DNA of 10,350 bases from contig JAMPXL010000012.1 in NCBI GenBank assembly GCA_023701165.1, positions 1 through 10,350 of the forward strand, read 5' to 3'. Below the pieces are notes generated by a model. That model did not search any database. It was not told the DNA's origin and saw nothing but the letters and a program-made list of their open reading frames with translations. The first letter of the stretch is position 1. Each line of letters begins with the position of its first letter. Positions 5,424 to 9,414 of this stretch are shown here, piece by piece. A program made the position numbers and the translations under genes. The stretch is from Geothrix sp. Lineage in GTDB: Bacteria; Acidobacteriota; Holophagae; Holophagales; Holophagaceae.

Positions 5424-5572
5424 CCGGACTCCGGCAATCCTCCAGTCTAGCGGGTGGGCCTCCGGGGTGGAGGCTGGGGATCCGGGGGTGCCCAACCTAA
5501 GGCCCTGCGGGGCCCGTCCGATGAAGGGGGAAGCCCTGCTGCGTCCAGCGGATGGGTCCTCCAGGAGCCTGC
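5424..5572. promoter_or_regulatory. Divergent promoter region between M50 protease and ALDH-like gene
   Basis: A 149-base region between divergent starts. It contains two small inverted repeats: GCCTCC/GGAGGC (5458-5463 and 5469-5474) and GGCCC/GGGCC (5501-5505 and 5510-5514). TAGACT on the minus strand (about 5450-5445) could be a -10 for the protease gene, but no matching -35 is seen. No promoter for the plus-strand gene is recognisable. The ribosome binding sites of both genes lie at its ends. Confidence 0.35.
5563..5567 (+). promoter_or_regulatory. Ribosome binding site of the ALDH-like gene
   Basis: AGGAG, 5 bases before the ATG at 5573. The in-frame ATG at 5552 has no Shine-Dalgarno and would put this AGGAG inside the coding region, so 5573 is preferred. 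Confidence 0.7.
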
Positions 5573-7129
5573 ATGTACCTCAAGCCCAATGCACCCACCG
5601 CCGCGGCCGCGGGGAAGACCGTCATCGGCTTCAACGTCATCAACGGCAAGGAGATCGAGGGCGATCTGGGCATGATCGAATCCCGCTCCGCCGCGGACCG
5701 GCGCGACCTGGTGGGCATGTTCCCCGACAGCGGCGAAAAGGACGTGGCCCGGGCGGCCAAGGCCGCGGATGACGCGTTCAGGGCCTGGTCCGCCACCCCG
5801 GCCCCGGCGCGGGGCGCCGTGATCCAGCGGACCGGCGACATCCTGGCGGCCCATCAGGCCGCGTTCGCCCGGATCATCACCCGGGAGACGGGCAAGACCC
5901 CCAGGGAAGCCCTGGACGAGGTCCAGGAGGCCATCGATACCTGCCGGTTCTCCGCCACCGAGGGACGCCGTCCCCAGGGCTGGACCATGTCCTCCGCCCG
6001 GCCCGGGCAGGGCCTCACGGTCCACCGGCGTCCCGCAGGAGTCTGCGGCGTCCTCACCACCGGCACCTCCCCCCTGGCCGTGCCGGTCCGGAAGCTCATT
6101 CCCGCCCTCCTTTCGGGCAACACCGTGGTGTGGAAGCCCAGCGACGACGCCCCCACCATCGCCTACCTGCTCATGCAGGCCCTCATGGATGCCGGCCTGC
6201 CGCCGGGCGTGGCGAACACCGTGAACGGCCGCGGCCGGGCCGGGTCCGGCAAGCACCACATCGCGGGCATCGGCAAGGGCCTCTACCAGGCCTTCAGCTT
6301 CACGGGCTCCGCGGCCCTGGGCCGGAGCATCGGCGAGCTGTGCGGCCACCATTTCATCGTCTCCGGCCTGGAGCTGGGCGGACGGAATCCCATGGTGATC
6401 CTGCCCGATGCGGATCTGGACCGGGCCGCCCGGGACGCCGTGCGGGCCGCCTTCGGCCACGGAGGGCAGCGCGGCGCCAGCCTCGCCAACCTCATCCTGC
6501 ACAAGGCCTGCGCCGCCGAGTTCAAGCGCCGCTTCCTGGAGGCCGTGGCGGCCCTCGACATGGGCAATCCCATGACCGATCCCGAGGTGGCCTACGGCCC
6601 CATGATCAACGCCCGCCTGGCAGAGGGCTTCAAGGCCCACTGGGAGCTGGGCCGCCAGGACGGCGCCACGCTGCTCTGCGGCGGCGAGGCCTGGACGGAC
6701 GGCAACCGCACGGAGCGGGTGCTGGGGCCCATCGGCCACGGCCACTACATGCAGCCCTGCGTCTGGGATGGCGTGGCCCCCTCCATGGAGCTCTTCCACA
6801 AGCAGGTCCTCGGCCCCACGGTGAACCTCATCCCGGTGGCCGACGTCGACGAGGCGCTGGCCTGCGTCCACGCCGCGCCCTGCGGCCTCTCCGCCAGCCT
6901 CTACACCGAGGACCGCCGCTGCATCGAACGCTTCCGGCGCGAAGCCCGGGCCGAGGTGCTGAACCTCAACACGGGCGGCACCGGCCTCCGCGAGAACGGC
7001 CCCTGGGACCTGGACTGGCACACCCGCTGGCAGACCGTGCATGAGACCGCCCCTGGTCCCATCCAGGATGCTCCCGTCCATGCCGCCAAGGGCAAGCCCC
7101 GGCCCCTGACCGATTGGACCGGCCTCTGA
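5573..7129 (+). CDS. Aldehyde dehydrogenase superfamily protein lacking catalytic residues (likely pseudoenzyme)
   Basis: A 518-residue ALDH-fold protein. The fold is clear: N-terminal NGKEI/ESRSAADRRDLVGMFPDSG (24-54), the NAD-binding segment ALLSGNTVVWKPS (178-190), FSFTGS (241-246), LELGGRNP (266-273, general-base Glu267 kept) and a family-like tail. The chemistry is not. The GQRC motif reads GQRGAS, so the nucleophilic Cys is Gly301. The P-[WF]-N-F-P oxyanion Asn is Thr165 (TTGTSPLAVP). The ExFGP cofactor motif reads KQVLGP, so Glu is Gln411. The PFGGxKxSG segment before the C-terminus is missing (about residues 466-480). The frame is open throughout with normal base bias, so it is not an obvious decaying pseudogene. 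A pyrroline-5-carboxylate dehydrogenase role is unsupported. It is divergent from the M50 gene and convergent with the ABC exporter. Confidence 0.85.
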   Translation: MYLKPNAPTAAAAGKTVIGFNVINGKEIEGDLGMIESRSAADRRDLVGMFPDSGEKDVARAAKAADDAFRAWSATPAPARGAVIQRTGDILAAHQAAFARIITRETGKTPREALDEVQEAIDTCRFSATEGRRPQGWTMSSARPGQGLTVHRRPAGVCGVLTTGTSPLAVPVRKLIPALLSGNTVVWKPSDDAPTIAYLLMQALMDAGLPPGVANTVNGRGRAGSGKHHIAGIGKGLYQAFSFTGSAALGRSIGELCGHHFIVSGLELGGRNPMVILPDADLDRAARDAVRAAFGHGGQRGASLANLILHKACAAEFKRRFLEAVAALDMGNPMTDPEVAYGPMINARLAEGFKAHWELGRQDGATLLCGGEAWTDGNRTERVLGPIGHGHYMQPCVWDGVAPSMELFHKQVLGPTVNLIPVADVDEALACVHAAPCGLSASLYTEDRRCIERFRREARAEVLNLNTGGTGLRENGPWDLDWHTRWQTVHETAPGPIQDAPVHAAKGKPRPLTDWTGL

Positions 7130-7138
7130 TCCGGGCTC

Positions 7139-7173
7139 AGAGTGCCTAACAAGACCCCCACGGGGCCGCGCGA
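7139..7173 (+). repeat. Left terminal inverted repeat arm
   Basis: Begins AGAGTGCCTAACAAGACCCC and continues to GGGGCCGCGCGA. It pairs with 7575-7609, differing at four positions. Confidence 0.85.
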
Positions 7174-7211
7174 GGGTCGCCGGGCGAGCGAGGCGAGGAA
7201 CGCGAGTCGAA

Positions 7212-7379
7212 GCGTAGCGGGTACTACGCGCGACGGAGGCTCCGGCTCTGCGAGCCGAAGGCGAGCAGGAGCGGCGCACAGCGCCGCGATAGCTGGAGGT
7301 GACGCGGCATCGCCCTCCGCCTGATGGGCCCTGCCCCGCAGGGCCCTCCCGCTCGCAAGCTCGCGGAGGCGGAGCCTCC
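7212..7379. repeat. Left cluster of short GC hairpins
   Basis: Consecutive perfect stems: GCGTAG/CTACGC (7212-7229, 6-base loop), CGGCTC/GAGCCG (7243-7257, loop TGC), GCGGCGC/GCGCCGC (7271-7287, loop ACA), GGGCCCTGC/GCAGGGCCC (7326-7346, loop CCC) and GGAGGC/GCCTCC (7365-7379, loop GGA). None is followed by a T-run on either strand, so they are not ordinary terminators. Confidence 0.6.
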
Positions 7380-7400
7380 CCGCCGCCCCTCGCCCGGAGG

Positions 7401-7416
7401 GAGAAAGCCAGGTGGG
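7401..7416 (+). repeat. Left half of nested perfect 16-bp inverted repeat
   Basis: GAGAAAGCCAGGTGGG, exactly complementary to 7563-7578 and 146 bases away from it. It would close a subdomain holding four of the small hairpins. The distal partner overlaps the right terminal arm by four bases. Confidence 0.8.
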
Positions 7417-7444
7417 CGCCCCGCGGCGTCAGGGCCCCTGGCTC

Positions 7445-7545
7445 GGACCTGCGGTCCTCGGGGCTCCGCCCCCGCCATCGGCTACGCCGATGCGGCCCTA
7501 TCCGCTTCGCGAATGGTGAACGATGTCCCGCATCGCCCTGCGGGC
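7445..7545. repeat. Right cluster of short GC hairpins
   Basis: Stems GGACC/GGTCC (7445-7457, loop TGC), GGGGC/GCCCC (7460-7472, loop TCC), CATCGGC/GCCGATG (7476-7492, loop TAC) and GCCC/GGGC (7535-7545, loop TGC). The last can alternatively form CCCGCA/TGCGGG (7527-7544). All lie inside the subdomain closed by the perfect 16-bp repeat. Confidence 0.6.
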
Positions 7546-7562
7546 CCTTCCTTGCGGTGCAT

Positions 7563-7578
7563 CCCACCTGGCTTTCTC
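7563..7578 (+). repeat. Right half of nested perfect 16-bp inverted repeat
   Basis: CCCACCTGGCTTTCTC, the exact reverse complement of 7401-7416. Confidence 0.8.
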
Positions 7579-7609
7579 GCGGCCTCGTCGGGGTTTTGTT
7601 AGGCACTCT
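7575..7609 (-). repeat. Right terminal inverted repeat arm
   Basis: Read on the minus strand it begins AGAGTGCCTAACAAAACCCC and continues to GAGGCCGCGAGA. It is the inverted counterpart of 7139-7173. Confidence 0.85.
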
Positions 7610-7626
7610 AGGCCCTTCCCACCCAC

Positions 7627-9414
7627 TCAGGCCGCCTCGCCCTCCGCGAACTGCAGCCGCACCAGCTTGGCGTAGACGCCGTCCTGGGCGATGAGGCCGT
7701 CGTGGGTGCCCCGCTCGACGATGGCGCCCTGGTCCAGGACCCAGATCTCATCGGCATCGCGGATGGTGGAGAGCCGGTGGGCGATGGTGAAGGTGGTGAG
7801 GCGGTGGCTCACGCGCTCGATGACCGTCTGGATCTTGGCTTCGGTTTCGGAGTCGATGTTGGCGGTGGCCTCGTCCAGCAGCAGCACGGCGGGCTCCAGG
7901 TAGAGCATGCGGGCGAAGGCCAGCAGCTGCCGCTCGCCGGCGCTCAGCTTCTGGCCGCGCTCGCCCACCTGCGTGTCCAGGCCCTGGGGCAGGCGGCCCA
8001 CCAGGTCCTTCAGCTGGCTCTGCTCCAGCACGGAGGCCAGGCGGGCCTCGTCCAGCGGGCGGTCCAGCACGATGTTGTCCCGCAGGGTGCCGGAAAAGAC
8101 GAAGACATCCTGGAGCACCAGGCCGAAGAGGTCCCGCAGGCCGCGCAGCTTCAGGTCGCGCACATCCACGCCGTCCACGGTGATGCGGCCCTCGTGCACA
8201 TCGTAGAACCGCATGAGCAGGTTGATGAGGGTGCTCTTGCCGGCCCCGGTGTGGCCCACCACCGCGATGCGCTGGCCCTTGGGGATGGTGCCGCTGAGCC
8301 CGCGCACGACCTGGCGGCCGCCGGCCTCGTAGGCGAAGGTGGCCTCCTCGAAGCGGATCTCGCGGGCGAAGACGGCGGCCCTGGCATCCGGCGCCTCGGG
8401 GATCTCCTCCCGGTTGTCCAGGAGGCGGAAGATGCGCTCGCTGGAGGCCAGGGCGGTCTGCATCACGTTGTAGCGCTCGGCCAGCTCCCGGATGGGCCGG
8501 AAGAACCGGCTGGACTGCTGGATGAAGGCCAGCAGCAGGCCCCAGGTGATGGCGCCCGCCTTGAGCTTGAAGCCCGCGTAGAAGATGAGCGCCGCCAGGG
8601 TGCCGGAGGTGATGAACTCCACCACGGGGAAGAACACGGCGTAGGCGAAGATGGTGCGGAGGAAGGCCTGGAAGTAGTCCTCGTTGAGGCCGCGGAAGTG
8701 CCCGCGGCTCCGCGCCTCCTGGGCGTTCACCTGCACCAGGCCCATGCCCGAGATCTGCTCCTGGAGGAAGGCGTTGATGGCGGCGTAGCGCCGCTGGGTC
8801 TCGCGGAAGGCCTCGCCCGCCCGGCGGCGGAAGAATTCGGTGGCGACCAGGAGGAAGGGCAGGATCACCAGGGCCACGGTGGCCATGCCCGGGTGGGTCC
8901 AGAACATCCAGGCCACGATGGCCAGCAGGGAGAGGGCATCCCCCACGATGGCCACGAAGCCCGAGGCGAACATTTCGTTGAGGTTCTGCACGTCGCTGGT
9001 GACGCGGGTCATGAGGCGGCCCACGGGGTTGCGGTGGAAGAAGTCCGTGCTGCGGCCCATGAGGTGCGCGAAGAGCTGCACCCGCAGGTCGACCATGGCC
9101 CTCTGGCCCACCCGGGCCAGCAGGAAGTAGCGCGCGAAGCTGACCAGGAAGCCGGCCACCAGCACACCGAAGAAGCCCGCCACCATGGGCGCCGCGCCCG
9201 CCAGGCTGCCCTGGTCCATGAAGCGGTTGATGAGGCGCAGGGTGAGCTCCGAGGGCAGCACCTCCAGCAGGGCCCCGAGGGCCATCAGCACCAGCAGGAC
9301 CAGGAGCGACGCCCACTGGGGACGCAGGTAGCCCGCCAGCCGCCAGAGCAGCGTATGGCGCATGGGCTGCTGGTCCACCCGGTCGGATTGGAAGAAGGCT
9401 CCCTGTTCGGACAT
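7627..9414 (-). CDS. ABC exporter half-transporter (TMD-NBD fusion, multidrug/lipid type)
   Basis: A 595-residue inner-membrane protein with an N-terminal six-helix exporter domain (about 25-325; hydrophobic stretches near 35-55, 76-99, 150-172, 176-192, 255-285 and 287-300) and a C-terminal ATPase domain (about 350-590). The ATPase has Walker A GHTGAGKST (387-395), a Q-loop at LVLQD (432-436), signature LSAGE (490-494, a variant of LSGGQ), Walker B VLLLDE (510-515) with catalytic Glu515, and switch His546 in IAHRLST. The layout resembles the MdlB/YheH/MsbA group that export drugs or lipids; the substrate cannot be read from sequence. The start is ATG at 9414 with GGGAG nine bases upstream; the longer upstream frame is not family-like. 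No partner half-transporter is adjacent, so a homodimer or a distant partner is likely. Confidence 0.95.
   Translation of the reverse strand: MSEQGAFFQSDRVDQQPMRHTLLWRLAGYLRPQWASLLVLLVLMALGALLEVLPSELTLRLINRFMDQGSLAGAAPMVAGFFGVLVAGFLVSFARYFLLARVGQRAMVDLRVQLFAHLMGRSTDFFHRNPVGRLMTRVTSDVQNLNEMFASGFVAIVGDALSLLAIVAWMFWTHPGMATVALVILPFLLVATEFFRRRAGEAFRETQRRYAAINAFLQEQISGMGLVQVNAQEARSRGHFRGLNEDYFQAFLRTIFAYAVFFPVVEFITSGTLAALIFYAGFKLKAGAITWGLLLAFIQQSSRFFRPIRELAERYNVMQTALASSERIFRLLDNREEIPEAPDARAAVFAREIRFEEATFAYEAGGRQVVRGLSGTIPKGQRIAVVGHTGAGKSTLINLLMRFYDVHEGRITVDGVDVRDLKLRGLRDLFGLVLQDVFVFSGTLRDNIVLDRPLDEARLASVLEQSQLKDLVGRLPQGLDTQVGERGQKLSAGERQLLAFARMLYLEPAVLLLDEATANIDSETEAKIQTVIERVSHRLTTFTIAHRLSTIRDADEIWVLDQGAIVERGTHDGLIAQDGVYAKLVRLQFAEGEAA

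Follow-up and report, generated by a model that had tools for sequence, protein, structure and literature searches.

Related elements

In the accessible text of a review of bacterial MITEs (PMC10969869), these elements are gene-less sequences of 50-500 bp with terminal inverted repeats, a related transposase and many hairpins, and the element reported here resembles them in each of these respects. The same text portrays MITEs as decayed transposons, whereas the present core is common to about eleven end types, which match at least two insertion sequence (IS) families, and occurs in other families of the phylum. Streptococcal BOX elements, as far as the excerpts of PMC3049150 describe them, are likewise modular, vary in length at one site and are commoner between convergent genes. 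In S. suis, two pairs of BOX ends, boxA/C and boxE/F, are found around one and the same boxB module (PMC3049150); this is the closest precedent for different ends on a single interior, the likeness being one of design only. In that description boxB can be repeated and interacts little with the rest of the element, whereas the present core is fixed and two-armed; the present element further differs from BOX by its end types (about eleven), by TNA or CTAG duplications with matching ISs and by its presence in several families of the phylum. The Tn3-derived TIMEs (262 bp) are also non-autonomous, with transposon ends and a stable predicted fold; their ends are of the Tn3 type, and the available sections of PMC4133298 make no mention of a core shared among other ends.

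A literature search, with subscription papers mostly outside its reach, returned no description of such an end-exchanging two-armed element. Tourist-like MITEs of the PIF/Harbinger group are palindromic and have a TNA-type target duplication, as here, but are eukaryotic. MITEs are usually regarded as broken copies of one transposon, whereas here the interior appears to outlast its ends. The evidence given below is very probably best explained by a MITE-type element in which one core module is carried on about eleven kinds of ends, with insertions accumulating at stop codons and, probably, a structure alike on both strands. This offers a testable case either of a non-coding DNA structure forming its own selfish lineage that switches transposases, or of a gene-end structure kept by the host.

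The element in the window

The window is the whole stretch of Geothrix sp. DNA that was analysed (10,350 nucleotides, contig JAMPXL010000012.1). Its element and flanking genes comprise the following features:

7140..7608, no strand: whole element, 469 bp; ends set by comparison with 68 paired copies, the window copy included
7140..7158, plus strand: left terminal inverted repeat of type T1, 19 bp
7590..7608, minus strand: right terminal inverted repeat of type T1, 19 bp
7137..7139, no strand: left target trinucleotide TCA (TNA class), without a repeat at the right side of the window copy
7609..7611, no strand: right flank TAG, not a duplicate of the left TCA
7170..7393, plus strand: arm A, one of the core's two long, imperfectly paired hairpins (seen when the window copy is folded; alignment A1 has a homologous arm)
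7235..7379, no strand: extra hairpin module in arm A, an inverted repeat missing in the 270-bp form (borders by eye against 270-bp copies)
7393..7401, no strand: linker joining the two arms, seen again across end types
7401..7578, plus strand: arm B, second long imperfect hairpin (inverted repeat, fold, alignment A1)
7437..7517, no strand: additional arm-B hairpin module of about 80-90 bp, missing in the 270-bp form (borders by eye)
7518..7538, plus strand: arm-B tip hairpin, a strongly recurring part of the core, conserved when 30 cores from across the phylum are aligned
5552..7129, plus strand: flanking gene of the aldehyde dehydrogenase (ALDH) family (PF00171)
7627..9414, minus strand: flanking ABC transporter gene, membrane plus ATPase domains (PF00664, PF00005)

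The original prediction, made from the sequence of this stretch, had described a 471-bp element with inverted 35-bp ends (31 of 35 identical, the first 14 identical) and a non-coding, unusually structured interior, lying between convergent genes. A direct count gave the same figures for the ends, and the element lies between the stop codons of the ALDH gene (ending at 7129) and of the ABC transporter gene (7627, minus strand). The folding energy of the element had a z-score of -10.4, with 0 of 100 shuffles as good, in agreement with the structured interior. A defined element was thus recovered, with a proper length of 469 bp (7140-7608), since comparison with other copies assigned the outermost A (7139) and T (7609) to the target. 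In the window copy, the inverted arms 7133-7173 and 7575-7615 span 41 nt and are 85% complementary. A coding-score gene caller placed no gene on the 469 bp, and mechanical ORFs do cross them.

Copies in the genome, the genus and the phylum

The genome of the window (58% complete, 361 contigs) contained 26 matching places, one of them a second full copy with 94% identity. DNA searches of 60 genomes detected copies in 37 of 37 genomes of the same genus and in 0 of 23 others, and a pattern scan of GTDB contigs recovered 69 stretches titled Geothrix, Holophagaceae or Acidobacteria. Window positions 7429-7560 had matches in 12 of 13 genomes, many of them on the arm-B tip hairpin and some on other parts of that range. 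BLAST of one T1 copy against plasmids and phages gave no match, nor did a scan of viral contigs with one exact core pattern. The element is short, lacks a transposase gene and has terminal inverted repeats common to dispersed copies with differing flanks, as expected of a MITE. Copies with the same ends and different flanks, proposed in the original prediction as a sign of mobility, were found dispersed across the genus.

Genome searches with a covariance model of the core (R1) covered this phylum. The core was detected in 41 of 47 genomes of the genus, with up to 49 matches. In a survey of 297 genomes drawn from the phylum (seven candidates scored per genome), 51 matched, 30 of them outside the genus; seven of these 30 had E-values of 5e-21 or less and the other 23 ranged from 1e-12 to 6e-4. 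Two of the seven strong genomes belong to other genera within the family (one genome per genus), four to a second family (f5, with 6 of 9 genomes matching, 4 strongly) and one to a third (f31); R1 had no match in three further genomes of the family to which the window belongs. Antisense R1 hits at true sites reached 53-60 bits, which indicates that part of the score reflects a mere two-armed palindrome; weak hits were thus not counted as members, and the 23 weaker genomes may contain something else. Among 20 distant sites fetched, 19 were examined and 11 had TNA or CTAG duplications, some only as the second-ranked border and all under a border choice that favoured duplications; lengths were 265-278 bp. 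The two-armed fold was present in all six distant sites that were folded.

Target sites and empty sites

The base frequencies at the borders of 68 T1 copies paired end to end gave the target consensus C-TNA-element-TNA-G. An exact 3-bp duplication was present in 29 of these 68 copies (28 of TNA form and one CTA). Once the copies containing N (T1 copies of 117, 198 and 466 bp) had been left out of the size and duplication counts, it was present in 28 of 65, leaving 37 of 65 without an exact one. T1 elements consisting of ends only (47-61 bp) had an exact duplication in 10 of 10 cases versus 18 of 55 longer ones (Fisher p 7e-5). Since such ends-only elements bear perfect duplications, insertion probably does not require the core; loss of the core in place from recent copies is an alternative. 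The ten ends-only hairpins (L058, L071, L078, L085, L096, L102, L113, L117, L118, L120) have by eye the look of bidirectional terminators.

Empty orthologous sites, a second sign of mobility named in the original prediction, were identified at two sites with gap-free counterparts: one is filled at locus L037 and empty at L043 and L116, the other is filled at L043 and L047 and empty at L037. These alignments were gap-free over 593-597 bp with 92-94% identity. The filled copies in both comparisons have unequal triplets (TGA/TAA and TAA/TAT), and removing one triplet restores the alignment; L047 keeps a remnant of the element at the site filled in L037. Three more filled/empty comparisons (L104, L064, L035) align only with gaps and are weaker proof. 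Dispersed copies, different flanks and empty sites together agree with the original reading of a non-autonomous mobile element tolerated between convergent genes, and from these sequence comparisons the view that the element is mobile and MITE-like is well supported.

The window copy itself, with TCA at the left and TAG at the right, has no target duplication. This had been taken in the original prediction as an argument against a MITE of the standard DDE-transposase type, an argument not supported in a family with TNA duplications and the ends of an IS5-family IS. At the nearest relative found for the window site (G010), the ALDH gene is 95% identical and has an NN gap and a different neighbour gene; the genes beside ALDH also differ in relatives generally. 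The unmatched TCA and TAG may stem from recombination between copies or from misassembly. The gene beside the ALDH gene in G010 resembles the flank of another copy of the window's own genome (L003, 690-957; compare window 7129-7627).

One core and about eleven end types

The interior also matched at places without T1 ends, where other inverted repeats form the ends. In total, a two-armed core of about 230 bp was found inside about eleven end types, some of them related. Besides T1, these are GAGGTCGTAAC.. (T2), GAGCTCATAAC.. (T3), GGCTGCTGAC.. (T4), GGAGCTGGAACGGAATAA (T5), GGGTCTGTTTTCAAAGTGG (T6), ..AAATTCC (T7), GAGCCTGTCCAAGTA (T8), GAGTGGGTCTTAGAATTC (T9), GAGGGTGTCTGCAAATTC (T10) and GAGGGAGTAGCCGAATGATA (T11). 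T1-T4 have a common inner end sequence and T6 and T7 likewise have end sequence in common, so that by eye about six or seven types are clearly different. With the script-based border choice, which favoured duplications, seven types included one or more copies with an exact duplication (TNA for T1, T2, T3 and T5; CTAG for T6, T7 and T8); T4, T9, T10 and T11 were each represented by one fetched copy, without an exact duplication. The basic form of 263-271 bp was present in ten end types, among 32 aligned elements that had been selected for that size; longer forms (with module insertions) and shorter forms also exist.

Both ends of one copy are mostly of the same type. A tree of 54 cores showed 13 changes of end label versus a mean of 36 after shuffling (12 labels, all distant cores being pooled as one), i.e. 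cores mostly keep their ends. Cores 95% identical were nevertheless found with different, related ends (T1/T2, T1/T3 and T1/T4). The pattern is one of end exchange over a constant core. As to its mechanism, one end may have been replaced and the other copied from the new one while the palindrome was folded; recombination between copies would be another way of changing ends.

Integron attC sites have the core-site motif RYYYAAC/GTTRRRY, and the GCCTAAC/GTTAGGC of T1 fits it; by eye, the motif is not found in the T5, T6, T8 and T10 ends on the same core.

Candidate partner insertion sequences

A transposase with matching ends, a further mark of a MITE, was found for T1 in another genome (locus L166, G028:C138). 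This IS (1423-2291, 869 bp) has DUF4096 and DDE_Tnp_1 frames and TTA on both flanks, and the T1 consensus matches its two ends at 16 and 17 of 20 positions. Its second frame was assigned to the IS5 family by NCBIfam (148 bits versus a cut-off of 110), the first being just under it (104). The ISs corresponding to T6 (L164 and others) are of the IS5 family and those corresponding to T8 (L193 and L206) of the IS1182 family, in each case with both ends matching and CTAG. For T10, one IS end matches at 19 of 20 positions (L169), the other being cut off by the contig; DUF4096 was above the Pfam cut-off and the IS5 model of NCBIfam under its own, and the core had no match in the genome bearing this IS. 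For T7, a degenerate IS was found, with one matching end and a DUF4096 frame with stops (L176). IS ends matched foreign end types at 6-14 of 20 positions, with the exception of the T6 IS and the related T7 type (16).

The single-contig genome G020 is a natural source of T6 transposase. Ten DUF4096 transposase hits were recorded in it (L164, L175 and L177-L184), seven of these loci having both T6-like ends about 860 bp apart. The domains PF13340 and PF01609 were not found in the copy-rich genomes G026, G018, G001, G007 and G006, nor in the 58% complete genome of the window. PF13359 was considered as a partner family and discarded, since it occurred in 3 of 47 genomes with hits overlapping those of PF01609.

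Under the preferred explanation, the element would consist of a core without genes between two short transposon ends and would be moved in trans by the DDE transposases of ISs with matching ends. The core is a conserved module found with about eleven kinds of ends, of which some match IS5-family ISs and one an IS1182-family IS. From the end matches, transposases of these two families may thus move the element in trans. Mobilisation of a REP-like repeat through a Y1 tyrosine transposase (RAYT/TIRYT) was considered on account of motifs resembling GTAG and CGTC in the arms (by eye) and of TIRYT genes reported in Acidobacteria (PMC3733652, partial text). Y1_Tnp was not found in the copy-rich genomes G033, G019, G063 and G032, R1 gave no hit in 10 fetched Y1 loci, and both ends and duplications are of the DDE-IS type, which makes a REP-like origin extremely improbable.

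Structure of the core

Alignment A1 comprised 24 cores picked from the fetched ones and representing 10 end types. It contains 58 pairs, 38 of them with changes on both sides, and 96.2% of cells pair; covariation was 0.414, whereas shuffles gave 0.135 (sd 0.009) and slid controls no more than 0.081. The covariation analysis advocated in the original prediction as a test for RNA therefore revealed strong compensatory pairing, and it did so with no clear strand bias. Among pairs predicted on both strands, G-T and A-C mispairs numbered 11 and 15 (29 T1 copies plus two others), and 30 and 23 in a wider set (p 0.41). One-strand folds, which admit G-T by construction, gave 44 and 24 in the wider set (p 0.02), and the union of folds in the T1 set, where G-T is favoured in the same way, gave 62 and 41 (p 0.05). 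Relative to the upstream gene in tandem pairs, the core had the same orientation in 22 cases and the opposite one in 21.

A structured RNA gene captured by transposon ends and acting as RNA from one strand could account for the compensatory pairing, for the conserved internal loops and tips, for extra hairpin modules such as those of large RNAs, and for the excess of G-T in one-strand folds, were this not biased by construction. The balance of G-T and A-C in both-strand pairs and the random orientation weaken this alternative, also put forward in the original prediction; there was in addition no Rfam match in window 7000-7800 (E up to 1) or in 8 other loci (E up to 0.5), and no promoter-like site in window 6900-7900. 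A one-strand RNA is consequently considered quite improbable. With no clear bias of strand or orientation, the constraint seems to bear on a structure alike on both strands, and the core probably works as a hairpin or cruciform in DNA, or as a transcript hairpin from either side.

The pairing could also have arisen without any function, the arms being paired only through self-copying of folded palindromes (template-switch correction). In favour of such copying, A1 contains numerous direct GC-to-CG swaps but few intermediates that are G-T or unpaired, and end types mostly agree within a copy. Template copying keeps no unpaired motifs, however, and across 30 cores of the phylum unpaired columns were nearly as conserved (0.74) as paired ones (0.79). 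Because unpaired motifs are kept, functionless self-copying fits less well than a two-strand hairpin function, and is held to be rather unlikely.

The extra hairpin modules sit at fixed places and also differ at one site (406 versus 270 bp at L043/L047), a pair which shows that arm-tip modules come and go; at another site, lengths were 269, 312, 270 and 80 bp (L066/L072/L060/L112). Homology between arm A and inverted arm B was weak (z -1.5 to 4.1, at least 2 in 19 of 24 cores against a crude shuffle), and no claim is made of it.

Position relative to genes

The target triplet coincided exactly with the stop codon of a neighbouring gene in 39 of 96 TNA-type sites, versus 32 of 213 intergenic CTNAG sites (binomial p 1e-9). 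Each site was counted once, controls were 8-kb loci with equal gene-call settings, and the home-made gene caller was looked over on the window; stricter settings in the control gave the same result. For T1 elements within the 8-kb control loci the excess was smaller (12 of 39). Since TNA and CTAG hold stop triplets, insertions probably gather on stop codons because the protein is left intact there. The accumulation is established as to position; its cause would be either insertion preference or survival.

The 3' ends of flanking genes were at most 10 bp from the element in 86 of 104 cases. Among 100 sites of known gene orientation (19 others being of unknown orientation), 32 lay between convergent genes versus 50 of 309 control pairs (Fisher p 0.0009). 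These figures could reflect elements that the host has recruited as two-way transcription barriers or terminators at gene ends and keeps for its own benefit, as could the hairpins with a T-rich side both ways made by T1 ends (by eye); a block to read-through in both directions had been suggested in the original prediction. Against such a role, 48 of the sites have tandem and 20 have divergent neighbouring genes, no such T-run is visible by eye in the ends of T5, T6 and T8, a simple scan for a GC hairpin followed by a T-run gave 0 terminators in window 6900-7900, and the positions are equally explained by survival of harmless insertions. A host-kept barrier thus appears unlikely, if conceivable.

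Within the MITE-type explanation, the chances are about even that what is truly inherited is the core, as an ancient Acidobacteriota module that would persist by end exchange, be mobilised by any IS5- or IS1182-family transposase at hand, and settle on stop codons harmlessly or as a two-way barrier.

Associated repeats and assembly joins

In draft genomes, N joins were seen inside elements at three loci and beside the ALDH gene at a fourth, L126 (L035, L064, L074, L126), and the repeat may break and mis-join draft Geothrix assemblies. The extra module of arm B (window 7436-7503) matches neighbouring pairs at G001:C3:521427-521585 and G001:C6:146420-146652, and may be a hairpin repeat in its own right. 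A different GC-rich hairpin repeat, with arms GGGCGCC..GGCGCCCGC, lies near some matches (L055 1415-1648, L266 379-615 and L283 231-442).
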